Counted from the first letter of the stretch, positions 6,000 to 20,546 are shown. The stretch: DNA of 20,546 nt from a virus (IMGVR_UViG_3300035701_000357:1-20546); one strand, 5' to 3'. The notes: a model not told the origin generated them from the sequence alone. Program-made: numbers and translations.

Positions 6000-6041
6000 C
6001 TAGATCAATGCGTAAGTGTAATACAATTGATACACATAGTC

Positions 6042-7064
6042 ATGTATCGATATTTAACGCTTGATGAAATTCATCAACAAATTTTTGAGAAACATGGTAA
6101 TGTTGTTAAAATTAGAGATAAAACGTATATTAGTGTAAGTAAAAAAGCAACGTTTATTGATTGTGATTATGGCGAATGGGTAACGAAAGTTAACATTGTT
6201 TTAAGTGGTCATGGACACACAAAAAGAGGAAGACAAAAAACGTTTGACTCTATACGTTTAACGCCAAATAAAATTACACAACATATGAAATTTTTGTGGG
6301 ATGGCGTTGCAACATTTGATGAATCTACATATGTAAATCGTGAAACACCTGCTCGATTTATTGATAAAGATTATGGTGAGTGGTGGGTTAAACCGCTTCA
6401 TGTAATGGGAGGAACGGGTCGACATCCTAAGCGTGCTAGAGCAAACACGGTGTCTTCTAGAAAGCTTTCTATTGATACGATCATTGATCGTATACGAAAA
6501 GTTCATGGTGACAATATCATAATGTGTTTAGACACCTATTGTGGTACACGTAAAAAAGCAAAATTTATCGATAAACAATATGGTGAATGGTGGACATCAC
6601 CTAGCAGTGTTATGTCGGGGCGTGGTCATCCCGCTGGCAAATTAAAAAAAGCAATTATGACAATGCGTTCTTTTAAATCTGTTAAACATTGGAAAACTAA
6701 CGAAATTTGCTATCCTGCATCGGGATTTGAATACGCTGTTTTGGTTTGGTTGTGTATGAACAAATATGATTTTGGTTGGCAAATTCCGATACAATTACCA
6801 ATGTTGACTCCAAAATTAAAACGATCCGTTATTTACAATGTTGATTGTTTTATAAAAAGCGGACCATTTGCAAATACATTTATTGAGATAAAGGGTACGT
6901 GGTCACGTCGACAAAATAACGACGGAGGGTATGCAAAATGGGAATGGTTTCATGCAAATTACCCAAACTCTCAATTGTGGATGAGAAAAGATTTGATTAA
7001 GCTTAATATTATCGATGACAATAGATCCTATTTAGAAAAAGCGAGACTAAATGACAAAAATTAA
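6042..7064 (+). CDS. Probable mobile endonuclease: three DNA-binding-like repeats plus PD-(D/E)XK-type domain
   Basis: A 340-aa basic protein. Residues 1 to about 200 contain three copies of a 68-69-residue unit with the core A.FID.DYGEWW..P..V..G.GHPKR, the FID motif following alanines at residues 36, 104 and 173. Such repeats recur in phage proteins of the DUF723/endonuclease type and probably contact DNA. The C-terminal part has E230, D268 (YNVDCF) and E282-x-K284 (FIEIKGTW), a plausible nuclease site. It sits alone between recombination and packaging genes and its end overlaps the next ORF by 14 nt, as expected for a late-inserted free-standing homing-type gene. ATG 6042 is preferred over TTG 6027; neither has a clear Shine-Dalgarno. 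Nuclease activity and mobility are inferred. Confidence 0.68.
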   Translation: MYRYLTLDEIHQQIFEKHGNVVKIRDKTYISVSKKATFIDCDYGEWVTKVNIVLSGHGHTKRGRQKTFDSIRLTPNKITQHMKFLWDGVATFDESTYVNRETPARFIDKDYGEWWVKPLHVMGGTGRHPKRARANTVSSRKLSIDTIIDRIRKVHGDNIIMCLDTYCGTRKKAKFIDKQYGEWWTSPSSVMSGRGHPAGKLKKAIMTMRSFKSVKHWKTNEICYPASGFEYAVLVWLCMNKYDFGWQIPIQLPMLTPKLKRSVIYNVDCFIKSGPFANTFIEIKGTWSRRQNNDGGYAKWEWFHANYPNSQLWMRKDLIKLNIIDDNRSYLEKARLNDKN

Positions 7065-9093: not shown

Positions 9094-9387
9094 ATGACGA
9101 TCAATATTAATGATTTACGTAAAATAATCAAAGAAGAGATTTATGATCTTAGCGAAGCAGTTGATCATGCTGGTATTAGAGATGTCGTTAATGGTGCTAG
9201 CAAATTACTCGCTGCAGTAGAAGCGTTTAAAGAAACAGCACCTCATTCAGCAATTAATGCTGTAACACCTCATATAAATCAACTTGAAAAAACATTAGAA
9301 GATATGGTGAGCTCTCCGGGTTCATACGTTGCTAAGCAAAAAGCAGAACCAAAAAAGGTATCACTTAAGGCTATCAAGCACCAGTGA
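9094..9387 (+). CDS. Small protein with N-terminal LRKIIKEEI motif; possible internal head protein
   Basis: A 97-aa protein preceded by AGAGGA, 7 nt from the ATG. Its first 16 residues end in an amphipathic helix-like DLRKIIKEEI, which contains an (L/I)-x-E sequence at 12-14 of the sort cut by T4-type gp21 protease. Similar N-termini occur in three other small genes of this window (14917, 15402, 20402). The rest is helical and ends in a lysine-rich tail (KAEPKKVSLKAIKHQ), as in DNA-associated core proteins. It lies between terminase and portal. Role as an internal or prohead-core protein is inference; the family is not recognised. Confidence 0.7.
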   Translation: MTININDLRKIIKEEIYDLSEAVDHAGIRDVVNGASKLLAAVEAFKETAPHSAINAVTPHINQLEKTLEDMVSSPGSYVAKQKAEPKKVSLKAIKHQ

Positions 9388-9400
9388 TGAACATTTTATC

Positions 9401-9430
9401 TTATTTGTGCTATACGAACTGCACAGATAA
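9401..9430 (+). other. Stem-loop in the gap before the portal gene, within a larger inverted repeat
   Basis: TTATTTGTGC (9401-9410) and GCACAGATAA (9421-9430) form a 10-bp stem with one G-U pair and a 10-nt loop. Around it AGGCTATCA (9368-9376) and TGATAGCCT (9441-9449) are perfect 9-base inverted repeats, so the whole 9368-9449 stretch can form a long two-part hairpin. There is no T-run after it, so a simple intrinsic terminator is unlikely; an RNA processing site or regulator of portal translation is possible. This 85-nt gap holds no other gene. Confidence 0.45.
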
Positions 9431-9472
9431 CATATTATCGTGATAGCCTCAACTTGAATAGAGGGGCACAAA

Positions 9473-12400
9473 ATGGCAAAACAAGAACCAAAAAGCCTTT
9501 TTAGACGTTTAAGCGCATTATTTCGCTCTGGTCCCGTTGTTAAAAGAAAAATACGAGGGTTAGATACTACACTTGCGATTGCTGATAAAGCAAAGTCGTC
9601 AGGAACACTTCTATTTCAAAAATCCTTGTCGCCGACGTATGCGACGATAACATCAAATGCATACAATCTCTCAGAGCGAATGATGAGGTATCAAGATTTT
9701 CAAGAAATGGAATATTGTGTATCATTTCAAACACTTATACCAACTGTTGATGGATTTGTAGAGATTGGAGAGCTTGCTAGTAGGTGCCTAGAAGATCAAA
9801 ATTACACCTTCATAGTGTACTCTTTTGATCATGAAAAGAAACAAATCGTTCCTACGATTGGAAAACAAGCTCGTTTAACTAGAACTGATCATGCGTGGAA
9901 AGTAACGTTTGATAATGGTAAAGAATTAATAGGTACGTCAAATCATCGATTAATGTTGCGAGATGGAACTTATCGAGAAATTGGTGATCTGAAGCCTGGA
10001 GATGCAATGATGCCTTTTTACCGCAAAGACCTGTTTGCGAATGCTGAAGAAGGCACAAAGGGTTACTCGTGGGTCTACACGATGGATGATAGGTTCAAAG
10101 GTTGGACCAAGGAACACCAATTGATCGCTGAATGGATTGCGGGACGCAAGCTTGCTGAAGACGAGTGTGTCCATCACATCAATTTCGATAAAATAGATAA
10201 CAGGCCAGAAAATCTGCGGATCATGACGAATTCTGACCACAATTCGTACCATGCCGCGATCAATAATGGCATGAAGTGGGCACCTGAGAATCATGAATGG
10301 ATCGAGCAGTTCAAGAAGAACCATGCAACGTGGATGCGAGATAATGCCCCGACCGCTCGACGCGACGTGACATTTGGTCGTATTTTAGAGATTAGTGAGT
10401 GTTTTGATTTTGATTTGATTTCAATATGTCGAACACTTGATGTTGATCGTAACGTTATCTATTCTAGGCTCGCAGATCATGGATTTGCAAACTATGATAG
10501 CTTTGTACAAGCGTATCGTCAAGGTGCTGAACTATTAGAAAATAAGAGATCTCTTCGTACTAGTGATTTATCAATAGAAAAAATCTTAGCCTTGATCGAA
10601 GAGCCAGATACAAAGCAATCATTGTGCATTAAATTGGGTTGTACTGTAAATGTTTTCAACAAATTCCTAGATAGAAAATTAGTGAAAAGTTGGATTCAGT
10701 TACGAACTGAATTAGGTTGGGAGCCGGCGACATTTCGTTCAGGCGGGTGCCCTAAGGGAAGCAATGGCAACGACCTAACGTTCAAACAGATTTGCGATGC
10801 TTACACCCCTGGTCTTACGCTACCTCGACTCGCAGATACGCTGGGCGTCAACAAGAATACAATCATCTCTCGGCTCGCGCAGCAAGGCCATGAGCGCTAT
10901 ACAGAGTTCCAGACATCTTACGCTAATTGCAAGGTCGTTTCAGTCGAGTACGTTGGAGTGTTGCCCCTCTACGATCTCACCGTTGATGGTTATAAGAACT
11001 TTGCAACTGACAGTGTTATCTCACACAACACACCTGAGCTTGCGGCAGCGTTAGACATATATGCAGATGAAACATGTGCGCAAGATGAAAAAGGGCGAAT
11101 TCTTCATGTTTATTCTGAAAATGAAAAGATCAAAGAAAACTTAGAAGATCTTTTTTATAACGTATTGAACGTAGAATTTAATCTTAGATCCTGGGCAAGA
11201 AATCTGTGTAAGTACGGTGATTTCTTTCTTTATAATGACGTTTCACCAACATATGGTGTTGTGAATTCATTTCCAATACCTGTTAATGAAATAGAGCGTG
11301 AAGAAAATTATGATCGTGATGATCCTTTTGCTGTTCGTTATCGGTGGGTAACACTAGGAAATCGTACACTTGAAAATTGGGAAGTAACACATTTTAGACT
11401 TCTTGGCAATGACATGTTCTTGCCATATGGTTCTTCCATCATTGAACCTGCTAGACGAATCTGGAGACAATTGATTTTGATCGAAGACGCGATGTTAGTT
11501 TATCGTGTTGTAAGAGCACCTGAACGTAGAGTTTTTTATGTTGATGTTGCAAACGTACCACCAGAAAATGTACCTATGTACATAGAAGAACAAAGAAAAA
11601 ATCTCAGAACAAACCAGGTTGTAGATAGTACCACTGGAAGAGTTGACTTGCGTTATAACCCACTTAGCGTTGACGAAGACTACTTTATTCCTGTCAGAGG
11701 AAATGATTCCGGCACGCGTATTGAAACTCTCGCAGGTGGAAATAACACAGCAGCCGTCGAGGACGTTGCGTATATTCAAAAGAAGTTGTTTGCTGCATTA
11801 AAGATTCCAAGAGCATATCTTGGATACGATGAAATGTTATCTTCAAAGGCGACTCTTGCGCAGGAAGATATTCGATTTTCACGAACAATTGCTGTCATTC
11901 AAAAAACAATTATTGCTGAATTAAACAAGCTTGCAATTATTCATTTGTATGCTCACGGATTTGACAATGAAGATCTTCAAAATTTTACATTAAGACTTTC
12001 TAATCCTTCTACTGTTGCACAACAACAAAAACTTGAATTATGGCGTGCAAAGTTTGAAATTGGAGGCTCTTTGCCAGAAGGAATGGGAAGTGCTGAATTT
12101 GTTCAACAAGAGATCTGGGGTCTTAGCATAGAAGAGATTGAAAAGATCAACGCACAAAGAATGAAGGAAAAGGTTCAGAACGCTAAGATTGAAGCAGCGG
12201 CTGCTGGTACAACCGGCGACGAAGGTGGAGATGATATTGGTGGAGGTGGAGATGATTTATTTGGAGGCGGCGGAGGGGAAGAGGAAGCCGCTGGAAATGA
12301 GGAACCAGGTGGTGAAATACCTCCTGAAGAAAATGCAGGTGAAGAACCTGAAGAAGAAAAATACAATAAAGAATTATTGACATCTATTGATGATAATGAA

Positions 12401-12871
12401 GATGATGAAGAATTTAGTCTTAAAATGTCGTCAATGAATGATTCTGAAAAACCCGTGAAAGTTCAACCTCAATTAAAACGAGCTTTATATAATAACTCTC
12501 GTCATAGAACACACGGAGCTTCAAAAACACATATGCCTGATTTTGTTAAGATGACTGGTGTTGATAGTCGTTCAATGAAAGATCCAACTGATTCTGATTT
12601 TATTAAGTCAGTTGTTTCAAATCCATTTGGTGAATCTACGTCTCGTGTTAAGTCTCCATTTTCAGGATTATCACCTGATGTTTGGTCTTCGCTTAAACAC
12701 ATGCAGGCATCATTTAAGAATGATATGAAAACAACCTCTCAAGGTTTTTCATCTGGTGTTTTAACAGAAAGTGATGACTCTATTGAATTAAACGTTAACA
12801 ATGAAGATCTTCCTGATGAAGATGAAGTACTTATCATTGAGGGAAGCGATAATAGTGTTGAGGAAGATTGA
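9473..12871 (+). CDS. 20: Portal protein (gp20-like) interrupted by an in-frame intein
   Basis: A 1132-aa ORF: N-extein 1-81, intein 82-519, C-extein 520-1132. Joined, the exteins give a 694-aa portal. Family marks in the C-extein include LRSWARNLCKYGDFF, the clip/wing region, and LSSKATLAQEDIRFSRTI, typical of T4 gp20. After about residue 905 comes a Gly/Glu-rich low-complexity linker (IGGGGDDLFGGGGG) and a roughly 200-residue charged tail absent from T4 gp20 (524 aa). The portal is the dodecameric ring at one vertex that nucleates head assembly and is the channel for DNA. AGAGGGG lies 7 nt before the ATG, a strong Shine-Dalgarno. Because head assembly needs the portal, intein splicing should be essential for this phage. 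Confidence 0.95.
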   Translation: MAKQEPKSLFRRLSALFRSGPVVKRKIRGLDTTLAIADKAKSSGTLLFQKSLSPTYATITSNAYNLSERMMRYQDFQEMEYCVSFQTLIPTVDGFVEIGELASRCLEDQNYTFIVYSFDHEKKQIVPTIGKQARLTRTDHAWKVTFDNGKELIGTSNHRLMLRDGTYREIGDLKPGDAMMPFYRKDLFANAEEGTKGYSWVYTMDDRFKGWTKEHQLIAEWIAGRKLAEDECVHHINFDKIDNRPENLRIMTNSDHNSYHAAINNGMKWAPENHEWIEQFKKNHATWMRDNAPTARRDVTFGRILEISECFDFDLISICRTLDVDRNVIYSRLADHGFANYDSFVQAYRQGAELLENKRSLRTSDLSIEKILALIEEPDTKQSLCIKLGCTVNVFNKFLDRKLVKSWIQLRTELGWEPATFRSGGCPKGSNGNDLTFKQICDAYTPGLTLPRLADTLGVNKNTIISRLAQQGHERYTEFQTSYANCKVVSVEYVGVLPLYDLTVDGYKNFATDSVISHNTPELAAALDIYADETCAQDEKGRILHVYSENEKIKENLEDLFYNVLNVEFNLRSWARNLCKYGDFFLYNDVSPTYGVVNSFPIPVNEIEREENYDRDDPFAVRYRWVTLGNRTLENWEVTHFRLLGNDMFLPYGSSIIEPARRIWRQLILIEDAMLVYRVVRAPERRVFYVDVANVPPENVPMYIEEQRKNLRTNQVVDSTTGRVDLRYNPLSVDEDYFIPVRGNDSGTRIETLAGGNNTAAVEDVAYIQKKLFAALKIPRAYLGYDEMLSSKATLAQEDIRFSRTIAVIQKTIIAELNKLAIIHLYAHGFDNEDLQNFTLRLSNPSTVAQQQKLELWRAKFEIGGSLPEGMGSAEFVQQEIWGLSIEEIEKINAQRMKEKVQNAKIEAAAAGTTGDEGGDDIGGGGDDLFGGGGGEEEAAGNEEPGGEIPPEENAGEEPEEEKYNKELLTSIDDNEDDEEFSLKMSSMNDSEKPVKVQPQLKRALYNNSRHRTHGASKTHMPDFVKMTGVDSRSMKDPTDSDFIKSVVSNPFGESTSRVKSPFSGLSPDVWSSLKHMQASFKNDMKTTSQGFSSGVLTESDDSIELNVNNEDLPDEDEVLIIEGSDNSVEED
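9716..11029 (+). mobile_element. Intein with HNH homing endonuclease, inserted in the portal gene
   Basis: A 438-aa class-1-type intein. Block A: C82 at the N-junction (Y/CVSFQTLIPT). Block B: GTSNHRLM at 154-161 with the TxxH histidine H158. HNH domain: ECVHHINFDKIDNRPENL with H234/H235, then a conserved IMTNSDHNSYH. C-terminal block F: LPLYDLTVDGYKNFATDS. Block G: VISHN with terminal His-Asn, followed by Thr as the +1 nucleophile (SHN/TPEL). All residues needed for splicing are present. Between the HNH and block F are helix-turn-helix-like modules. GC content jumps within the element: about 40% at the start, 42-60% over the HNH part, 27-38% over 10380-10680, about 52% over 10740-10980. Confidence 0.95.
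10370..10927 (+). repeat. Repeated helix-turn-helix-like modules inside the intein
   Basis: The first (10370 to about 10531) and last (10778 to about 10927) modules are clearly related in protein sequence: compare LDVDRNVIYSRLADHG with LGVNKNTIISRLAQQG, each followed by a Y..F...Y end. A weaker middle module (about 10562-10710) has the pattern LCIKLGCTVNVFNKFLDRK. Each looks like a small DNA-binding helix-turn-helix, probably giving target recognition to the HNH nuclease. The first and last copies differ sharply in base composition (about 27-38% against 52% GC). Confidence 0.6.
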
Positions 12872-12913
12872 AAGAGACGATACCAAATAATGGTTCGTTA
12901 GGATAGAAATTAC

Positions 12914-13771
12914 ATGTCAAAGTCACATAATAAAAAAAGAAATGTTGGATTGTTATACGAATTTCTTGTTAGTGTAATTTCTCGTTCACTGGTTGATGGT
13001 GACAAGAAAAAATCAGCACAAGCTTTAAAAATTCTAAGAAAACATTTTAAACAAGGAACTGAACTTTATAAAGAGTTTCGATTGATCAATTCATTGATTA
13101 AGACGACCGTTAGTTCAGAATCAGTTGCTGCAAACATTTTAAGCGAAGCCAGAGCTGCTGCTAGATCACATGATGTTGAAAAACTTGATAGACAAAAATC
13201 ATTTTTGATTAAAGATGTTAACCATCTTATCAATGATGAGAATTTTTATGATCAACAAGTGAATCGATATCGCACACTAGCAACAATTCAATCATTGATT
13301 AACGATTGGAGATCAAATGATCGTGATATTGCTCGAGTTGCTCAGTATGAAGATAGTGTCATGACGTGGTTAATGACTGAAAAAGAAATACCTGGTTCTC
13401 CGATTTTAACTGAAGAGTCACCAGGAACAAGTCGTTTATTGATGAAAGTCATGATGAAAAAACTCAATGAGAAGTACTCTGGTGTACTTAATGATGAGCA
13501 AAAGTCGTTGATTAGAGCATATGCATTTTCAGCTGCAAACAATGACGAAAGTTCTATAAAGTTAAAATTGTTTGAAGTAAAACAGAAACTTTTAATATCA
13601 ATTGATGAATTTGGTCAATCGAATAAAGAAAATGAATACATTAACAAAAAACTTGTTGAAGCTCGTAATAAACTTTTGAATGAAAAATTTGAAAATGTTG
13701 ATGATGATACAGTGACAAGATTCATGTTGTATACAAAGTTAGCTTCTGAGCTTGGACAGGAAGAGGGATAA
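12914..13771 (+). CDS. Conserved-looking helical protein between portal and protease
   Basis: A 285-aa, almost entirely helical, charged protein beginning with a basic segment (SKSHNKKRNVGLLYEFLVS). It has no cysteine, no membrane segment and no enzyme motif I recognise. In T4 the small prohead-core genes 67 and 68 lie between portal and protease; this gene holds that place but is much longer, so a core or scaffold role is only suggested by position. GTTAGGAT lies about 11 nt before the ATG. Its end carries AGGAAGAGGG, which serves as the ribosome site of the protease gene starting on the very next base after its stop. Confidence 0.75.
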   Translation: MSKSHNKKRNVGLLYEFLVSVISRSLVDGDKKKSAQALKILRKHFKQGTELYKEFRLINSLIKTTVSSESVAANILSEARAAARSHDVEKLDRQKSFLIKDVNHLINDENFYDQQVNRYRTLATIQSLINDWRSNDRDIARVAQYEDSVMTWLMTEKEIPGSPILTEESPGTSRLLMKVMMKKLNEKYSGVLNDEQKSLIRAYAFSAANNDESSIKLKLFEVKQKLLISIDEFGQSNKENEYINKKLVEARNKLLNEKFENVDDDTVTRFMLYTKLASELGQEEG

Positions 13772-14383
13772 ATGAACGATCTTAAGTTATTGAACTCGTA
13801 CGAGGTATTTGAATACACTTCAGATACGATCAAGGAATCGATAGAAAAAAACGAAGGTAAAATTCTAATGAAGGGAATTTTACAAAAAGCTGATGCTCTT
13901 AACCAAAATGGTAGAATTTATCCCATGACAGTCCTTGAGCGTGAAGTGAGAAATTATCAAAAGTTTATCATTGAAAATAGAGCAATGGGAGAACTTGATC
14001 ATCCAGAAAGTTCAGTTGTTAATCTAAAGAACGTTTCTCATGTTGTACGTGAAGCATATCTTGAAAATGGCGTAGTGTATGGTACAGTTGAAGTTTTAGA
14101 CAAGACACCCTCTGGAGCAATTCTTAAAGGTTTAGTTGAGTCTGGCGTTAAACTTGGTATCTCTTCAAGAGGTGTTGGTTCAACACGTAAACAAGGTGAT
14201 TATCATGTTGTACAAGATGATTTTCAGTTAATCTGTTGGGACTTTGTAAGTGAACCGTCTACAAGTGGAGCCTTCATGATACCAGAAGGAAAAGCTATAA
14301 ATCCAGAGGAACTACGAGGATTTTTTAATAAAACAGATCGAATTGACAGGATCCTAAATGACGTCTTGTCTTATCGTGATTGA
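13772..14383 (+). CDS. 21: Prohead maturation protease (gp21-like)
   Basis: A 203-aa serine protease of the herpesvirus-assemblin-like fold used by T4-type phages. Visible marks: the N-terminal GRIYPMTVLEREV segment, the catalytic histidine in GELDHPESS (H77), the catalytic serine in LGISSRGVGS (S131/S132), and a C-terminal CWDFVSEPST strand with D157. Length matches T4 gp21 (212 aa). It sits in the prohead core and, once assembly finishes, cuts scaffold, capsid and internal proteins after (L/I)-x-E. Translation should be coupled to the gene before: the ATG directly follows its TAA and AGGAAGAGGG lies upstream. Its presence makes the (L/I)-x-E sites in neighbouring small proteins meaningful. 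Confidence 0.94.
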   Translation: MNDLKLLNSYEVFEYTSDTIKESIEKNEGKILMKGILQKADALNQNGRIYPMTVLEREVRNYQKFIIENRAMGELDHPESSVVNLKNVSHVVREAYLENGVVYGTVEVLDKTPSGAILKGLVESGVKLGISSRGVGSTRKQGDYHVVQDDFQLICWDFVSEPSTSGAFMIPEGKAINPEELRGFFNKTDRIDRILNDVLSYRD

Positions 14384-14415
14384 GTTGTGGTAATTAATAC
14401 AAAGGAAATATAAAG

Positions 14416-14826
14416 ATGACGCTTGACAATCCAAAAGGTGGCATAGGTTATGCTGCAGAATTTCAATCTTCGGCGCTGCCATGGGTTACGGCTAGCGTTG
14501 CTCCAAACATTTCAGGTGTTAATCCAATGCGTTTAGGTTTTCCAAAAGTTACTCGTTTTGTTACTTTTGCAAATGGAGATGCTGTTACAAAAAAATTAAG
14601 GATCGGTTTCACTCGAAATGGAATGTCAAATGGTTTTTATTATCTTCTTGATGGTGGTCAACAAATTACGTTAGAACTTCGTGTTAAAGAAGTTTACGTT
14701 GCTGGCGATTCAACCAATGCTCCATTTTCGATATGTGCCGGATTAACAAATATAAATTCAAGAGACATGCCTGTATTGTCTGGAACATTACCAAATGGTG
14801 ATGCAGGATGGCTTGGCATCGGGTAA
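14416..14826 (+). CDS. Probable beta-rich structural (decoration-type) protein, possibly truncated
   Basis: A 136-aa protein rich in Gly, Asn, Thr and beta-prone segments (KKLRIGFTRNGMSNGFYYLL, QQITLELRVKEVYV), starting after AAAGGAAATATAAAG, a strong Shine-Dalgarno. No helix-rich region or enzyme motif is seen. Position among head genes plus composition fit a capsid decoration or head-surface protein, but the family is not recognised. The stop at 14824-14826 may be premature: a 25-codon stretch in another frame (14843-14920) reads like the end of such a protein and terminates in an ATGA overlap with the next gene. Confidence 0.7.
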   Translation: MTLDNPKGGIGYAAEFQSSALPWVTASVAPNISGVNPMRLGFPKVTRFVTFANGDAVTKKLRIGFTRNGMSNGFYYLLDGGQQITLELRVKEVYVAGDSTNAPFSICAGLTNINSRDMPVLSGTLPNGDAGWLGIG

Positions 14827-14842
14827 TGTTAATGATAGATAG

Positions 14843-14920
14843 AATTGGTCACTTGGCCCGAGATTTGACCCTCAAAAATTTAGTGCAGATAAAACAGGTA
14901 TAACAATAGGTGTGATATGA
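14843..14920 (+). pseudogene. Out-of-frame coding remnant after the 136-aa structural gene
   Basis: Read from 14843 this gives 25 residues, NWSLGPRFDPQKF then SADKTGITIGVI, ending in TGA at 14918-14920. That stop overlaps the next ATG (14917) as ATGA, the classic coupled overlap. The frame is +1 relative to the preceding gene and has no start; a TAG at 14840 lies just before it and GATAGATAG, a short tandem repeat, precedes that. I read it as the original C-terminus of the preceding gene, cut off by a small indel and a nonsense codon, or by an assembly error. The competing 25-aa ORF at 14826-14903 has less protein-like content. Confidence 0.4.
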
Positions 14921-15348
14921 AAACTTCTCGTGATGAATTAAAAACAATTGTTAAACAGTGTTTGATTGAAATCCTATCAGAAGGAATTGGTGCAAATAAA
15001 TTTTTGGCACCACAAACACAAAAAATATCTGGATTTTCAGAACAAAGAACAAGAATGGGATCACGTCAAGGATTTGATCCCGCGTTAGACACACCAGTAA
15101 AACAACCACCAAACCAATTAAAAGAAGCCATTAGGCGTGAAGCTGGTGGAAATAAGTTAATGGAATCAATTTTTGCTGATACAGCGGCAACTACTATGAT
15201 GGTTAGTGGTGATGGCGGAGCTCCTGTTCATGCCATGACGCAACAAGAACAATTTAGTGGAAACCCAGAACAAGTATTTGGTGAAGAAAGTGCCGGTCGA
15301 TGGGCAAGTTTAGCTTTTGCCGATTCTCCAGTGAAGAAATCAGCGTAA
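14917..15348 (+). CDS. Small head-module protein with N-terminal cleavage-type motif
   Basis: A 143-aa protein starting with RDELKTIVKQCLIEILSEG, an amphipathic helix with (L/I)-x-E sites at L16-I17-E18 and L20-S21-E22. The remainder is polar and low in hydrophobics (QTQKISGFSEQRTRMGSRQG), with a C-terminal AGRWASLAFADSP patch. That last patch resembles the end of the scaffold protein (EADRWARLAGI), which may be a shared docking sequence. AGGTG lies 6 nt before the ATG. It probably is an internal or core protein of the prohead; this is inference from position and the shared motif. Confidence 0.7.
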   Translation: MKTSRDELKTIVKQCLIEILSEGIGANKFLAPQTQKISGFSEQRTRMGSRQGFDPALDTPVKQPPNQLKEAIRREAGGNKLMESIFADTAATTMMVSGDGGAPVHAMTQQEQFSGNPEQVFGEESAGRWASLAFADSPVKKSA

Positions 15349-15401
15349 GTTTGTCGCCGCAACATATTTAGGTTTAGCACATAAACACGAAAGGTGCAAA
15401 A

Positions 15402-15662
15402 ATGTCACAAGTTAAGCTCACCCCAAAATTACTCAAACGTATTATTGATGAAGAAGTTGCTAAGTTCGGCGACATGGAAGATGTTGAAGATCGAGCAGAT
15501 GATACTGAAGAAACAAATGCTGATGAGTATGCTGATGCATTAGAGAAGCACATCGATTATGTCAAGGCACTTAAAGTTGAAGAAGGTCGTTTGATTAAGC
15601 GTCTTAAGACGATCAGAGAAACAAAGCAGCGTTATCTTAAGAAAATTGTTAACGTTGTTTGA
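15402..15662 (+). CDS. Small acidic coiled-coil head-module protein
   Basis: An 86-aa protein starting TPKLLKRIIDEEVAKF, another copy of the shared N-terminal motif with I15-D16-E17, followed by a strongly acidic stretch (DMEDVEDRADDTEETNADEY) and a basic C-terminal helix (EGRLIKRLKTIRETKQRYLKK) likely to form a coiled coil. The acid-then-base layout and small size recall T4 prohead-core proteins gp67/gp68, without proof of homology. GAAAGGTG lies 6-7 nt before the ATG. The 53-nt gap before it holds only this ribosome site. Confidence 0.7.
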   Translation: MSQVKLTPKLLKRIIDEEVAKFGDMEDVEDRADDTEETNADEYADALEKHIDYVKALKVEEGRLIKRLKTIRETKQRYLKKIVNVV

Positions 15663-15689
15663 TTTTGTGATTGGTGAAAGGTAACGAAA

Positions 15690-16229
15690 ATGCCAGGCGA
15701 AGGAAAATATACATCTTACTCAGGATTGAGCAAAGCTGATCAGCTTCCAAAAGCAAACTTTTTGAAGAAGTTATTTGGATCGCATGTAAAGTCAGGTGAA
15801 GGTTTAGATACTGCACCTCCTCAAGTCTTACATGATCCCGCTGATGAAGATGGAATGAGAAAAGATATTATTGCAATTTCAAAAGCTGCAATGCAACCAG
15901 CTCATCAAATTGGTGATATGGGATTTTTTCCCACTGGCGTTGACATGCAGTTTCAAGGAGCTCCTGATATTTCAACTGTCAAGTGGGATTCTGCTGGAGA
16001 TGCTGCAAATCCATATGCACCTGACATTTCTTCACCAGGTCCAGGAAAAACTGAAGGAACCGATAAAGATAAAGATCCACAAATTCAAATAGCTGATTTG
16101 AAACCAAACTATGTTCCAGGCGCTCCGAATACAGGAACTAAATCACCAATCGCAACAGTTGCAAAGATTATTGCTGCGAATATTTTAGGTGTAAAAGCTC
16201 CAAGTGGCGATTCTGGCGGTAATGTGTGA
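15690..16229 (+). CDS. Gly/Pro-rich hypothetical head-module protein
   Basis: A 179-aa protein that looks largely unstructured: repeated Pro, Gly, Asp and Ser (PDISSPGPGKTEGTDKDKD, NYVPGAPNTGTKSP), with a short hydrophobic helix near the end (IATVAKIIAANILGV). It lacks the N-terminal LRxIIKE motif of its neighbours. GAAAGGTAACG gives a good Shine-Dalgarno before the ATG. It is placed between the small core-type proteins and the scaffold gene. A role as a linker or minor head protein is possible; I do not recognise it. Confidence 0.7.
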   Translation: MPGEGKYTSYSGLSKADQLPKANFLKKLFGSHVKSGEGLDTAPPQVLHDPADEDGMRKDIIAISKAAMQPAHQIGDMGFFPTGVDMQFQGAPDISTVKWDSAGDAANPYAPDISSPGPGKTEGTDKDKDPQIQIADLKPNYVPGAPNTGTKSPIATVAKIIAANILGVKAPSGDSGGNV

Positions 16230-16269
16230 TCATGGTGATAATTAAACCTGAAGATTGTTAGGAATTAGC

Positions 16270-18198
16270 ATGAGTAAGCAACTTTACGAAGAAGCACTAG
16301 CCGACGTCAAAAAGATTAAGGAAGTGGCAGAAGCAAATGCACAACGTGCAGTTTTAGATGTGGTTGTACCAAGAATTCGTGACTTAATTGAAAATGAATT
16401 ACTTCGTGAACACAACGTAGATGATGACGAATTTGCAAAACCTGGTTCAGTCGCGCCCGATAATGATGACTTGATAACTGATCTTGTTTCACCGGCTACA
16501 CGATCTGAAGAAATTGGTGATTCTGCGATTGCACCTCCTGATGCTGAAGGTAAGGTAACACTTGATATTGATGCAATGTGTGCTGATCCTGCAGGCGTTT
16601 CAATTGATGCTCCTATGATGGGTGCTTTTAATAATGACGAATATGAGATTAATCTTGAATCTCTCGCAGCATTATCACCTGTTTTGAATGCAACAAAAAA
16701 TGGTGCAGCAAAAGAATTTGAATTAAGAGTTTATCGTTTAGGTGAAATGATCAATAAATTCAAAGGCGCTGGTGCCTTGATTCAAGAATCAAATGGTTAT
16801 CAAGTGAAAATCGCTCAGATGATTTCACGTGTTGAAGATATGTATGACTACTTGCAAGGGTCAATTGTTGATTCTGCTAAGAAAAACTTATACGAAACCA
16901 AACTAGAATCCTACTTCAAGGAACTTAATAAACTCCAGGGGTTAACAATGTCCAAAAAGCACAATAAAAAAACAATGAACGAAGCAGATGTTACTCTAAA
17001 GTTGACAGGACTTCCTGACGACGTTGATCTAGATTCAGTTGGTGTTGATCTCATCACCGGTGAAGAAGATGATCTTGACGTTGACAGCTCAGATGATGTT
17101 GATTCTGAAGAATCAGATGAAGATACTGACGATGAGTTTGGTAGTGATATGGACTTAGGCGATTTAGATATGGGTGGTTCAGAACAAGGAGAAGAAGATA
17201 TGGGTGAGAATCTCAGGCTAAGCGACGACACAATCGTCGAAATCGATGAAAACATGCTACGCCGGGAGATTTTCCGGATTAAGAAGCTTCGTGAAGAAGC
17301 TGTACCTTCTACTGCAGGTCATGCACCTAGTGGTAAAGAACTAGATGACTTTGGTGGTGGTAGCGATGAAGGTAGCCCATTCGATGTAGATATGCCAGAT
17401 TTGTCACCAGCTAAAGCGGCTCGCCCACTAGGTGAGGCTGACGATGAAGATATGGATGAAGCTGATCAGATGGATGAGTCTGATGCTGAAGAGATGGACG
17501 AAGCTGATATGGACGAAGTTGGTAATCGACGCTCGGGTCAAGACTTCGGAACCGATGTTTCTAATGGTCATGAGACCCCAAAGCAGAACATGCCTTATGC
17601 TGAATCAGTATCACGCAGATTGTCTTTTGAGAAGAAACTTCAGGAACGTGCCAAGTCACGTGCCAAGTCAATCAAATTAGAGGCATCAAAATCAAAGAGC
17701 AAACTAAAAGTTGAAGCTCTTAAGAAAGAATATGCACAGGTTTCAAAGCGTTTCAATGAATCGCTTGCTCGTGCAAACAAACTTAATAGACTAGTGGCTG
17801 AATCAGCCAAGAAGTCAAATCGATCTAACCAGAATGGTGGATCTTCAAGGTCAGCGGCGACCGAAAATGCACTCCGCAATAAGTTGGCAGAAACGAATCT
17901 GATCAACGCGAAGCTAATGTTTACCAACAAGCTTTTGCAGAATGAGTCACTCACCTCTCGTGCTAAGGCACAAGTGATCGAGCAACTTGATTCAGCAACA
18001 ACTGTAAGGGAAGCAAAGCTAGTCTACGAAAGTCTTAATAAGGCTCTCGGCGGCACGTCAAAGTCTGTAAATGAGAACAGGGATCGCAAGGTTCTTGGAT
18101 CTTCATCAAGGACAACTCGTCCAGCCTCTACGCAAGCAATCAATGAGGGTTACGAAGCGGATCGCTGGGCAAGACTCGCAGGTATCAATAAGCAGTGA
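16270..18198 (+). CDS. 22: Prohead core scaffolding protein (gp22-like), enlarged
   Basis: A 642-aa acidic scaffold. Residues 1-226 form a helical N-part (QLYEEALADVKKIKEVAEAN). After an internal start at M227 come two long Asp/Glu runs (EEDDLDVDSSDDVDSEESDE and DEDMDEADQMDESDAEEMDE), the gp22-type segment LSDDTIVEIDENMLRREI, and a Lys/Arg-rich coiled coil. The end contains the typical LINAKLMFTNKLLQNESLT, then LDSATTVREAKLVYESLNKA. T4 gp22 is only 269 aa. The protein fills the prohead core and is degraded by gp21 protease. ATG 16270 is chosen over TTG 16255 because TTAGGAAT lies 6 nt before it. The 416-aa part starting at 16948 looks like a complete gp22, so the N-part may be a fused or separately required domain. 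Confidence 0.88.
   Translation: MSKQLYEEALADVKKIKEVAEANAQRAVLDVVVPRIRDLIENELLREHNVDDDEFAKPGSVAPDNDDLITDLVSPATRSEEIGDSAIAPPDAEGKVTLDIDAMCADPAGVSIDAPMMGAFNNDEYEINLESLAALSPVLNATKNGAAKEFELRVYRLGEMINKFKGAGALIQESNGYQVKIAQMISRVEDMYDYLQGSIVDSAKKNLYETKLESYFKELNKLQGLTMSKKHNKKTMNEADVTLKLTGLPDDVDLDSVGVDLITGEEDDLDVDSSDDVDSEESDEDTDDEFGSDMDLGDLDMGGSEQGEEDMGENLRLSDDTIVEIDENMLRREIFRIKKLREEAVPSTAGHAPSGKELDDFGGGSDEGSPFDVDMPDLSPAKAARPLGEADDEDMDEADQMDESDAEEMDEADMDEVGNRRSGQDFGTDVSNGHETPKQNMPYAESVSRRLSFEKKLQERAKSRAKSIKLEASKSKSKLKVEALKKEYAQVSKRFNESLARANKLNRLVAESAKKSNRSNQNGGSSRSAATENALRNKLAETNLINAKLMFTNKLLQNESLTSRAKAQVIEQLDSATTVREAKLVYESLNKALGGTSKSVNENRDRKVLGSSSRTTRPASTQAINEGYEADRWARLAGINKQ
16937..16950 (+). promoter_or_regulatory. 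Internal ribosome-binding site and in-frame start inside the scaffold gene
   Basis: AGGGG at 16937-16941 lies 6 nt before an in-frame ATG at 16948. This is as good a Shine-Dalgarno as those of the true head genes and would give a 416-aa C-terminal product beginning MSKKHNKKTMNEADV. The sequence before it (ESYFKELNKLQG) reads like a protein end. A nested scaffold product of this kind is known for lambda C/Nu3; here it is inferred. Confidence 0.45.
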
Positions 18199-18234
18199 TT
18201 AGGTTCTGATTCAAAAAGACCAAAGGAAATAAAT

Positions 18235-20142
18235 ATGAAATTTTTTACAATAGATCAACTCTCAGCAGGCATCAAAGAAAGACATGTCGGAGCTGAACGC
18301 GCAAGACTAATCGAAAAGTGGAGCCGCACTGGTTTGCTCCGTCAACTTGATGGTAACAAGCGTGAAATGATGGCCCAGCTCTTGGAAAACCAGGCAGCTC
18401 AGGTCCTTAGAGAATCAAACTCTCTATCAACCGGTGGTGGTGCAATGGGATCATCTGGCCAGGTTCAAGGTTTCTCGAACATTGCATTCCCGATTGTTCG
18501 TAGGGTATTCGGTGGACTTGTTGCGAACGAGCTTGTCTCGATTCAACCAATGTCCTTACCTTCAGGCCTAATCTTTTATCTTGATTACACGTATGGATCC
18601 AACGTGGGTGGTGAAGCAGGCGCAGGCTTAAGCAACACTTCAACGTTTGAAACGTATCAGCGTGGTCAGTCAATCTATAACAACCCAACGGGTCGTGGTA
18701 TCCAATCAGGATCTCTCGCATCTGGTGGTATGTACGATCTAGTTAACGTTGGTTATACCAAGGTCCATTCTGGAACGCTCGGTCTCTCAGGATCAAACGC
18801 TGACATTGGTGCATGGACGGGTACTGCCGAAGCATTCGTAACTGGTTCTGCATTAACAGTAGCAACTGATTTCTCAGGTACGAATGCAAGAATGTTGCAA
18901 TTCGATCCACAGGTTGAAGTTGATCTTGGATTGAACTTACTTGACGTAACGTTCGTTCACTTTGCAGTTTCTGGCATCGTGTCAGTTATTCCAAAGGGTG
19001 ACTTCCTCTCTGTTGAGCAGATTGCTCTCTTTGGATTTCAGTCAAATGGTGGAGCAACTTCATGGGGTGAAGCATATCAATCAGGAAAGGGATTGTTTAA
19101 TCTTCGTCGTTTGAACAAGCGTGGAGATTGGAACGGTTCAGTGTTTACTCCTTCACCTCTCAATGGTTCACACATTCAATTGGTTATCAGGCTTACAAAT
19201 GGTGGAGTAGCATCATCGATGAACTCTGCAACGCAGAAGCTTAGCATGGCCATTGGTGATGTTCTACAGTCAACTGACGGTACAGCAGGTGGAATTGGAT
19301 CAGTATTAACGATTCCTTCATTCGAATCTGACTTTGGTTCTTCAGCTTCTCCAGCTATTCCAGAGATTGACATCAAGATTGAGTCTCTTGCTATCGTAGC
19401 AACAACCCGCAAGCTCCGTGCTCGTTGGTCACCTGAGTTGGCACAGGATCTTAATGCGTACCACTCAATGGACGCCGAGGTTGAACTCACGAGTATTCTG
19501 TCTGAACAGATTGCTCTTGAAATTGACCGTGAGATCTTGAATGACCTCGTTACCGAGGCAAACGGCTCGAACCTTTACTGGAGCCGTTCTCCAGGTAAGT
19601 TCGTGAACAAGTTGACGGGTGTTCCTCAGCAACTTGCTTCAAGCCTTAGCATCGGACCGCAATTCACGGGAACTGTTCGTGAATGGTACGAGACCTTGGT
19701 TGAAACGATGATCGACTGTGCAAACCAGATTCACCGTAAGACGCTCCGCGGCTCGGCTAACTTCATTGTTACCGGACCAGACGTCTGCACGATTCTTGAG
19801 AGCTCCGTGCTATACAAGCCGAAGTACTCAATTGACGGCGAGGGTCAGGTTGGTTCTCCGTTCACAATTGGTGCGGAAGCAATCGGTACAGTTTCTAACC
19901 GTTTCACGGTTTACAAGGATCCATACTTCTCTCGTAACCGAGTATTAATTGGTTACAAGGGTGGTAGCTACCTTGAGACCGGGTATGTGTACTCACCGTA
20001 TGTGCCACTCATTGTGACACCAACGATCTTTGCACCTGAAGATTTCACGCCACGTAAGGGTGTAATGACGAGATATGGTAAAAAGATGGTTCGATCTGAT
20101 TTTTACGGAACCGTCACCGTCCTCGACATGAACATAATCTGA
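18235..20142 (+). CDS. 23: Major capsid protein (gp23-like), larger than T4's
   Basis: A 635-aa capsid protein. HK97-fold T4-type marks include RRVFGGLVANELVSIQPMSLPSG, then RKLRARWSPELAQDLNAYHSMDAEVELT, SEQIALEIDREIL and NFIVTGPDVCTILESS. The N-terminal approximately 60 residues look like a removable propeptide: L49-L50-E51 and L58-R59-E60 fit gp21 cleavage, and the second is placed like the T4 site at E65. Compared with T4 gp23 (521 aa), extra residues lie in a Gly/Ser-rich beta region between about 150 and 380, probably an enlarged surface insertion. CAAAGGAAATAAAT before the ATG is a strong Shine-Dalgarno, and the coding sequence is much richer in GC (about 50% in sampled parts) than the replication genes, as expected for a very highly expressed gene. 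Confidence 0.96.
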   Translation: MKFFTIDQLSAGIKERHVGAERARLIEKWSRTGLLRQLDGNKREMMAQLLENQAAQVLRESNSLSTGGGAMGSSGQVQGFSNIAFPIVRRVFGGLVANELVSIQPMSLPSGLIFYLDYTYGSNVGGEAGAGLSNTSTFETYQRGQSIYNNPTGRGIQSGSLASGGMYDLVNVGYTKVHSGTLGLSGSNADIGAWTGTAEAFVTGSALTVATDFSGTNARMLQFDPQVEVDLGLNLLDVTFVHFAVSGIVSVIPKGDFLSVEQIALFGFQSNGGATSWGEAYQSGKGLFNLRRLNKRGDWNGSVFTPSPLNGSHIQLVIRLTNGGVASSMNSATQKLSMAIGDVLQSTDGTAGGIGSVLTIPSFESDFGSSASPAIPEIDIKIESLAIVATTRKLRARWSPELAQDLNAYHSMDAEVELTSILSEQIALEIDREILNDLVTEANGSNLYWSRSPGKFVNKLTGVPQQLASSLSIGPQFTGTVREWYETLVETMIDCANQIHRKTLRGSANFIVTGPDVCTILESSVLYKPKYSIDGEGQVGSPFTIGAEAIGTVSNRFTVYKDPYFSRNRVLIGYKGGSYLETGYVYSPYVPLIVTPTIFAPEDFTPRKGVMTRYGKKMVRSDFYGTVTVLDMNII

Positions 20143-20167
20143 TTAGTTTCAACTAGTTAGAAAGATT

Positions 20168-20202
20168 TGAGGGGCTCCGGAAACGGAGCCCTTCGTCGTT
20201 TT
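20168..20202 (+). terminator. Intrinsic terminator after the major capsid gene
   Basis: GGGCTCCG (20172-20179) pairs perfectly with CGGAGCCC (20184-20191) around a GAAA tetraloop, and the stem can be extended by weaker pairs from TTGAG/TTCGT-type flanks. TTCGTCGTTTT follows. It lies 25 nt after the capsid stop codon and would end the head-gene transcript. Confidence 0.9.
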
Positions 20203-20213
20203 GCAAGGCTGTG

Positions 20214-20390
20214 ATGACTGTAAATAGTTTACATTACCAAGATATTGATTATTGGTATACTGACAACGTGCTGCGTTACGATAGATTCAAATACCGTGCT
20301 CATGACTCCAAGAGTGAAAAACAAATAGCACTTGAAGCCAGCGTCTCAAAAATATGGGGTTGTGGTTCTTTTGTTTTCAAACGTATCTAA
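20214..20390 (+). CDS. 58-aa hypothetical protein
   Basis: A small ORF, ATG 20214 to TAA 20388-20390, with AAGG at 20205-20208 placed 5 nt before the start. The protein is rich in Tyr, Trp and charged residues (DIDYWYTDNVLRYDRFKYRA, ending KIWGCGSFVFKRI), unlike random frame content. Its start lies just past the T-run of the terminator, so it needs read-through or its own promoter. No family is recognised. Confidence 0.5.
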   Translation: MTVNSLHYQDIDYWYTDNVLRYDRFKYRAHDSKSEKQIALEASVSKIWGCGSFVFKRI

Positions 20391-20401
20391 TACTTAAGTA
20401 C

Positions 20402-20546
20402 ATGAAGAAGATATCACAGCAAGAACTCCGTTCTGTCATTAAGTCTGTGATCAAAGAAGCAAGTGAAGATCGTGAGTTCCCATCAATGGACACAGGCTCA
20501 TCATACGATGAAGATTGGGTGAAAGAGTATCCTAAAGATGATGGAT
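20402..20546 (+). CDS. Start of a small head-type protein with shared N-terminal motif (3' truncated by window)
   Basis: The first 48 codons of a gene running off the window. It begins MKKISQQELRSVIKSVIKEA, a clear copy of the N-terminal motif seen at 9094, 14917 and 15402, with I17-K18-E19 as an (L/I)-x-E site, then a polar acidic stretch (DTGSSYDEDWVKEYPKDDG). Upstream is TAATACTTAA, the box also seen before other genes, and no good Shine-Dalgarno. Likely another internal or core head protein, by inference from the motif. Confidence 0.65.
   Translation, partial: MKKISQQELRSVIKSVIKEASEDREFPSMDTGSSYDEDWVKEYPKDDG

Follow-up and report, generated by a model that had tools for sequence, protein, structure and literature searches.

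A short N-terminal leader on hundreds of unrelated proteins of large uncultured T4-like phages, very probably a capsid-targeting propeptide

Introduction

Do otherwise unlike proteins encoded around the head genes of a T4-like phage share an address for the virus head? The question is raised by the window, i.e. the whole stretch of 20,546 nucleotides analysed here (IMGVR_UViG_3300035701_000357:1-20546), which is a 20.5-kb fragment of a T4-like phage from a virus record and in which the genes starting at 9094, 14917, 15402 and 20402 open with the same short N-terminal helix ending in (L/I)-x-E. An earlier note on this DNA had read this motif as a possible capsid-targeting and cleavage signal of the T4 kind. 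In T4, the first ten residues of the internal protein IPIII suffice for head entry; genetic analysis assigned targeting mainly to residues 4 and 7 (Y4, F7) and processing to residues 8 and 10 (I8, E10), and the protease gp21 cuts after L/I-x-E (PMC9026906). The internal proteins of the T-even phages form a highly diverse set whose sole common part is the targeting sequence (PMC3012670). The propeptide of gp23 comprises 65 residues (PMC5694885), and the cut after E65 is also read from the T4 record. In this study, we follow the leader from the four window genes into related phages and weigh its possible functions.

Leader genes in the head gene block

The gene order of the window is terminase (7441), 9094, portal with a probable intein (9473), 12914, protease (13772), 14416, 14917, 15402, 15690, scaffold (16270), major capsid protein (18235) and 20402, as obtained from simple ORF calls without annotation; some of the records used in this study overlap in origin. 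The gp21-type protease that the earlier note had placed at 13772 is borne out by its match to the head maturation protease family and by its location between portal and scaffold (Table 1). The probable intein of the portal gene occupies protein residues of about 80-530 and includes the HNH domain. Upstream of the terminase gene, positions 6027-7064 encode a protein in which repeats of the A-x-F-I-D-x-x-Y-G-E-W type occur three times.

The N-termini of the four leader genes are as first described: MTININDLRKIIKEEIYDLSEA (9094), MKTSRDELKTIVKQCLIEILSEG (14917), MSQVKLTPKLLKRIIDEE (15402) and MKKISQQELRSVIKSVIKEAS (20402). Exactly these four of the 90 window ORFs of at least 40 amino acids contain the pattern [LI][KR]x[ILV][ILV]x(1-5)E within their first 35 residues. 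Two further sites, absent from the earlier description, are LSE21↓A in 9094 and LSE22↓G in 14917 (arrows mark cuts or candidate cuts). Contig L002, whose capsid gene is 100% identical to that of the window in the best segment, completes the 20402 gene and has a fifth leader gene just past it, MKISVCNLRILVNMLSEA.

The products of the first three genes define families a, b and c. Family b is present with leader in all seven large contigs of relatives described below, and family c was likewise found in all seven. In the family a alignment, L8, E15 and E21 are invariant and I12 and E14 are conserved to at least 90%; its second site usually reads [LIV]-x-E, with a middle residue that varies and with A or G next. 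Among the 27 family b sequences, L8, E18 and E22 are invariant, L20 and G23 reach at least 90% and residue 21 is variable. In AlphaFold models of modest overall confidence, the leader of families a and b forms a helix of its own that stops at residue 22-23: in family a (pLDDT 73), helices span residues 5-22, 25-48 and 51-73 with a break at 23-24, and in family b, a helix at 5-23 (pLDDT 89-94 across residues 1-20) is followed by a low-confidence linker. Pfam and PHROG searches with the three families gave nothing useful, and a fold search with the family a model returned no significant match. Families a, b and c, all encoded in the head operon, probably represent core or internal proteins of the head.

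Table 1 Features of the window and examples of leader-bearing domain proteins on other contigs (arrows mark candidate cuts)
Feature	Location	Strand	Basis and remarks
Small protein, 97 aa, family a	9094..9387	+	ORF call; between terminase and portal; leader followed by predicted helical hairpin
Family a leader MTININDLRKIIKE↓EIYDLSE↓A	9094..9156	+	Candidate cuts after E14 and E21
Portal (gp20)	9473..12871	+	Interrupted by probable intein with HNH domain; context, outside the signal
gp21-type head maturation protease	13772..14383	+	PHROG 207 match, E 3.7e-45
Small protein, 143 aa, family b	14917..15348	+	Core gene between protease and scaffold; alignment of 27 sequences
Family b leader MKTSRDELKTIVKQCLIE↓ILSE↓G	14917..14982	+	Candidate cuts after E18 and E22
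Small protein, 86 aa, family c	15402..15662	+	Core gene adjoining family b; alignment
Family c leader MSQVKLTPKLLKRIIDE↓E	15402..15452	+	Candidate cut after E17
Scaffold	16270..18198	+	gp22 position; site KIK-E18; assigned by position, no family match
Major capsid protein (gp23)	18235..20142	+	Conserved L-R-E60↓S
Leader gene truncated by window end, MKKISQQELRSVIKSVIKE↓ASED	20402..20546	+	130 aa from ATG when read on L002
Leader of the 20402 gene	20402..20458	+	Candidate cut after E19 (VIKE↓A)
Leader directly before exonuclease motif	L329:4519-5385		MNLLREYIRELLVE; domain placed by motif
Leader directly before HAD motif	L320:597-1145		MRLLREYIREILSE; domain placed by motif
Leader directly before J domain	L029:10675-11763		MNELRRIIREAMLN; domain placed by motif

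The leader in related phages

Relatives were gathered by similarity of their capsid and protease genes, blind to the motif, and seven large contigs of 133-309 kb were obtained nearly whole. The signal is far wider than the four genes of the window showed. When the relatives were searched for other ORFs with this N-terminus, up to about 25 were found per contig, and the alignment across phages gave a leader that is conserved up to residue 14-15, is then lost, and is borne by hundreds of unrelated proteins. Two forms can be distinguished, MKITxxQLRxIIxE (MKITKRQLRRIIKEE...) and MKLLREYIRELLxE, with the common core [LI]-R-x-[IL]-[IL]-x-E. The consensus of 116 representatives is MKITxxQLRxIIxE with nothing after it; as the near invariance of E14 in this alignment is partly forced by the selection pattern, we relied on a cleaner test, in which genes were picked by their first four residues only ([MVL][KR][IVL][TS]) and the later columns were then read.

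In this set, L8 is found in 82% of the sequences, I11 in 68% (L11 in 15%), I12 in 61% (V12 in 22%), E14 in 68% and E15 in 56%, with little conservation beyond. The information per column amounts to 1.8-2.4 bits at positions 8, 11, 12, 14 and 15 and to about 0.2-0.9 bits from residue 16 on. Hydrophobic residues at 8, 11 and 12 together with E14 occur at 94 of 141 gene starts, versus 3 of 349 internal copies of the tetrapeptide (Fisher p 1.4e-60, a value that is merely indicative since related sequences are not independent). A loose pattern within the first 28 residues is found in 12.6% of the called genes versus 1.9% after internal methionines. Shuffling of the first 40 residues gave 0.3-0.7 expected matches per contig, where 13, 15, 25, 10, 14, 4 and 4 were seen.

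A further line of evidence comes from the coding DNA. For 93 identical leaders of 15 residues, 68 DNA versions were counted; distinct versions of identical leaders differ on average by 5.6 of 45 bases, all differences being synonymous, even inside one genome. This multitude of synonymous versions shows that selection acts on the peptide.

Cleavage-type sites in the leader and in head proteins

At residue 14, [LI]-x-E is present in 72 of the 141 leaders picked by their first four residues, with more peaks at 18 and 22 and about one to three occurrences per position downstream to residue 50. In the MKLLREY leaders, which lack a second site, position 13 carries 0.9 bits and positions 11, 12 and 14 carry 2.6-3.1 bits; these values derive from a larger set that, unlike the first-four-residue set, includes motif-selected loci. 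Extended leaders of the KITKRQ type have a second site, L19-L20-x-E22, in which residue 21 is variable. The commonest residue after E14 is another E, whereas A or S follows at the T4 sites considered here, so that the second site may be the main cut in such leaders.

Similar sites are found in the head proteins themselves. The major capsid protein of the clade has [VL]L[KR]E60↓S with E60 in all 87 relatives, and this predicted site, L-R-E60↓S (58-60) in the window, is the counterpart of the E65 cut in T4 gp23. The GIKE sequence at residues 12-15, which had been named as the site of this protein, is not conserved (E in 45 of 87 relatives, D in 22, Q in 8) and was rejected. The proposed scaffold site, KIKE at 15-18, fared better, with E18 in 41 of 52 relatives. 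In the protease, [LI]-x-E is present in 57 of 63 relatives at the position of I-K-E↓S or A (residues 20-23), directly before the catalytic part; IKE of the window protease is encoded by nucleotides 13829-13837. This conserved I-K-E↓S suggests N-terminal self-processing, as suspected in T4 gp21. Two large contigs, G014 and G015, encode the major capsid protein in two tandem copies each.

Proteins and genes carrying the leader

Past residue 28, the carrier proteins fall into 319 clusters, 237 of them singletons; these include some false positives from liberal start choice, and when a stricter pattern is required, 244 clusters still have at least one fitting member. The majority of carriers gave no match to a known family. 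The exceptions include a DnaJ-type protein, a DEDDh exonuclease, HAD and HD hydrolases, the head of a CCA-type nucleotidyltransferase, a zeta-type kinase and an acetyltransferase. In three examples, the leader directly precedes the domain (Table 1), which was placed by motif as the family scan gave no member names. The J-domain example probably contains a WGR domain too. A leader-bearing HD-domain protein (L220:7726-9006) resembles SpoT-like hydrolases and is a candidate effector acting on alarmones. A few carriers (the DEDDh exonuclease and the CCA-type nucleotidyltransferase) could equally be ordinary intracellular enzymes.

The leader is also found on runs of adjacent genes, the longest comprising six genes in contig G007 and five in G008, and in both contigs the number of adjacent leader pairs exceeds that of all 2000 permutations. 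Among the 76 core families, defined as those in at least five of the seven large contigs, 72 have no member with leader, including helicase, primase, recombinase, ribonucleotide reductase, nucleotide metabolism, terminase, capsid, protease and tail tube. Phage proteins in general thus do not bear the leader. Core families with leader are three, namely b and c of the head operon and one further.

Distribution and other leader types

When back-translated, the strict 14-residue leader matched 76 stretches in 2.9 million viral contigs, and a permuted peptide of equal degeneracy matched none. Both gp21 and gp23 of the window type are present in 16 of the 21 tested records behind these matches, the other five being fragments 51-135 kb in length. 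Across 85,000 genomes of bacteria and archaea, the strict leader has just four matching stretches, located on three contigs; two of the three bins concerned contain this gp21 and gp23, so that the matches are probably phage contigs in metagenome bins. The bins Methylococcaceae TMED69 and Halobacteriovorax SP2999 (L334-L337) appear to hold contigs of these phages. The group bearing the tag is made up of large uncultured T4-like phages with dozens of otherwise unrelated leader proteins per genome.

In isolate phages, tblastn searches with the leader or families b and c found almost nothing, and the nearest isolates are without families b and c. Other leaders in the same register are present in two more distant T4-like genomes: Flavobacterium phage immuto, an isolate with kinship to the clade, has FDLKKFLVEN...LLKEG on four proteins, and in the 484-kb phage LR756508, leaders of the MRLSERKLRRIVKEE and MKFKELLKE types are borne by 18 of the 106 genes within the 100 kb that was read. 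Microcystis phage Mel-JY01 offers a few possible cases only. Within LR756508 (160-260 kb; L340, L341), a family of nine or more paralogues has a leader of 9-10 residues of the MKFKELLKE type and a common body. This body contains LYRG, P-x-R-x-S-x-F and, late in the sequence, an E-V motif; it matches no Pfam or PDB profile and is perhaps transferase-like. The idea that they are ADP-ribosyltransferases like T4 Alt found no support in these profiles and is not claimed.

Comparison with T4 and other known systems

The leader shares several features with the T4 capsid-targeting sequence (CTS) of IPI-IPIII and Alt, which is cut by gp21. Both are short N-terminal propeptides or candidate propeptides (10-19 residues in T4) common to otherwise unrelated proteins, with conserved hydrophobic positions and a terminal gp21-type site L/I-x-E, and in both systems a gp21-type protease and the gp22/gp23 system are encoded in the same genome (gp22 by position only) in a head block of like gene order. 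According to the T4 record, IPII and IPIII start with MKTYQEFIAE↓A, gp24 with MAKINELLRE↓S and gp22 with MLKEQLIAE↓A. When aligned by eye, Y4-F7-I8-E10 of T4, i.e. the targeting and processing positions of IPIII, fall on L8-I11-I12-E14 of the leader, order and spacing being in agreement, and gp24 has the same register. The propeptides of gp22 and gp24 share the hydrophobic-hydrophobic-x-E core, but these are structural proteins of one copy each. Judged from these alignments, what the leader has in common with T4 is a pattern and not sequence identity: with MKTYQEFIAE only MK, the hydrophobic positions and E agree, this exact sequence being a T-even trait that the class does not require. In contrast to the ten residues of IPII and IPIII, the clade leader is four residues longer, basic and of different sequence; it often has a second cleavage-type site near residue 22, and the number of genes bearing it per genome is several times higher, with arrays in some genomes and with the leader on whole enzyme domains in several cases.

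Two other systems are comparable in part. In the unrelated phage P1, the N-terminal capsid-targeting signal of DarB suffices to send a reporter into the head, the first 30 residues having been used (PMC9024508); the comparison made here is with this published description. Head propeptides of phiKZ and SPN3US are removed after x-E motifs by a gp21-related protease, as is proposed here for the leader, but are mostly longer than 100 residues, and the phiKZ motif is S/A-x-E.

Possible functions of the leader

The reading as a T4-like capsid-targeting and cleavage signal is supported and was the best-fitting one in every comparative test run. It draws on the sharp end of conservation at residue 14-15, the (L/I)-x-E site with its variable middle, the register shared with the T4 CTS, the near absence of the leader from core genes of replication, metabolism and tail, and its co-occurrence with gp21 and gp23 of the clade. 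Very probably, then, the leader is a capsid-targeting propeptide of the T4 type that the gp21 homologue removes and whose use has greatly expanded, at times to whole enzyme domains. Its most likely role is to bring its carriers into the head, from which they would be injected into the bacterium. The 14-residue amphipathic helix (about 22 residues with the second site) would dock the carrier onto the scaffold core of the growing prohead; the phage's own gp21-type protease would cut behind (L/I)-x-E (at E14, near E21-22 or at both), and the mature protein, released within the head, could leave it together with the DNA. The numerous further genes with leader in these phages would then represent interchangeable head cargo. 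Counting against this reading are the E that most often follows E14, the single site of the MKLLREY leaders, the likeness to T4 in pattern only, the absence of families b and c from the nearest isolates, and the few carriers that may be ordinary intracellular enzymes. For docking, cleavage, presence in virions and injection, which we infer, the searched literature yielded no cleavage data or virion proteomics on this clade, and searches for the motif strings returned unrelated papers only.

Other explanations have to be weighed against this one. The leader might be a helix that docks onto the scaffold or another head protein and is not removed, (L/I)-x-E simply being part of an amphipathic helix. 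The predicted helices (5-22 and 5-23) and possible salt bridges of E14 within them agree with this, but a variable residue between a fixed L/I and a fixed E, recurring at E14, E18 and E22, is what a protease site predicts, the major capsid protein and the N-terminus of the protease have the same form, and conservation stops right after the site; we therefore regard a permanent docking helix as improbable. Targeting elsewhere, e.g. to the inner membrane, the tail or baseplate, or a shared intracellular partner such as RNA polymerase, without any head role, appears less probable still: a basic amphipathic helix can bind membranes and most carriers are of unknown function, but families a, b and c are encoded within the block of terminase, portal, protease, scaffold and capsid genes, the leader has the form of the head propeptides of T4, and it is found together with gp21 and gp23.

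Two explanations that deny a common function to the peptide have a negligible probability. Four short motifs alone are weak evidence and would be open to a chance or compositional likeness of short N-termini rich in lysine, leucine and glutamate; this is ruled out, as neither shuffled N-termini nor internal tetrapeptide controls nor the permuted pattern reproduced the result. The clusters of adjacent leader genes in G007 and G008 would fit the recent spread of one DNA cassette encoding gene 5' ends with no selection on the peptide, which is ruled out by the exclusively synonymous divergence of identical leaders, also within one genome.

Implications

We incline, by a small margin, to a more general proposal. 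T4-like phages overall may use lineage-specific versions of one head-loading code, an N-terminal cut site of the form hydrophobic-x-x-hydrophobic-hydrophobic-x-E, which in the large uncultured clade would by now serve as a general tag and mark tens of interchangeable proteins per genome, some of them enzymes; the injected set could then be listed from the sequence, and the leaders of immuto and LR756508 would be further dialects.

The proteins that enter the cell with the phage DNA are known for very few phages, and the roles of most T4 internal proteins are open. A readable leader would provide hundreds of candidate injected proteins in uncultured phages, mostly of unknown function and some with enzyme domains. 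It might also be of use as a packaging tag in systems other than T4, and it can be tested directly by looking for new N-termini behind E14 or E22. If the proposed function is true, the injected cargo of a phage can be read from its DNA sequence.
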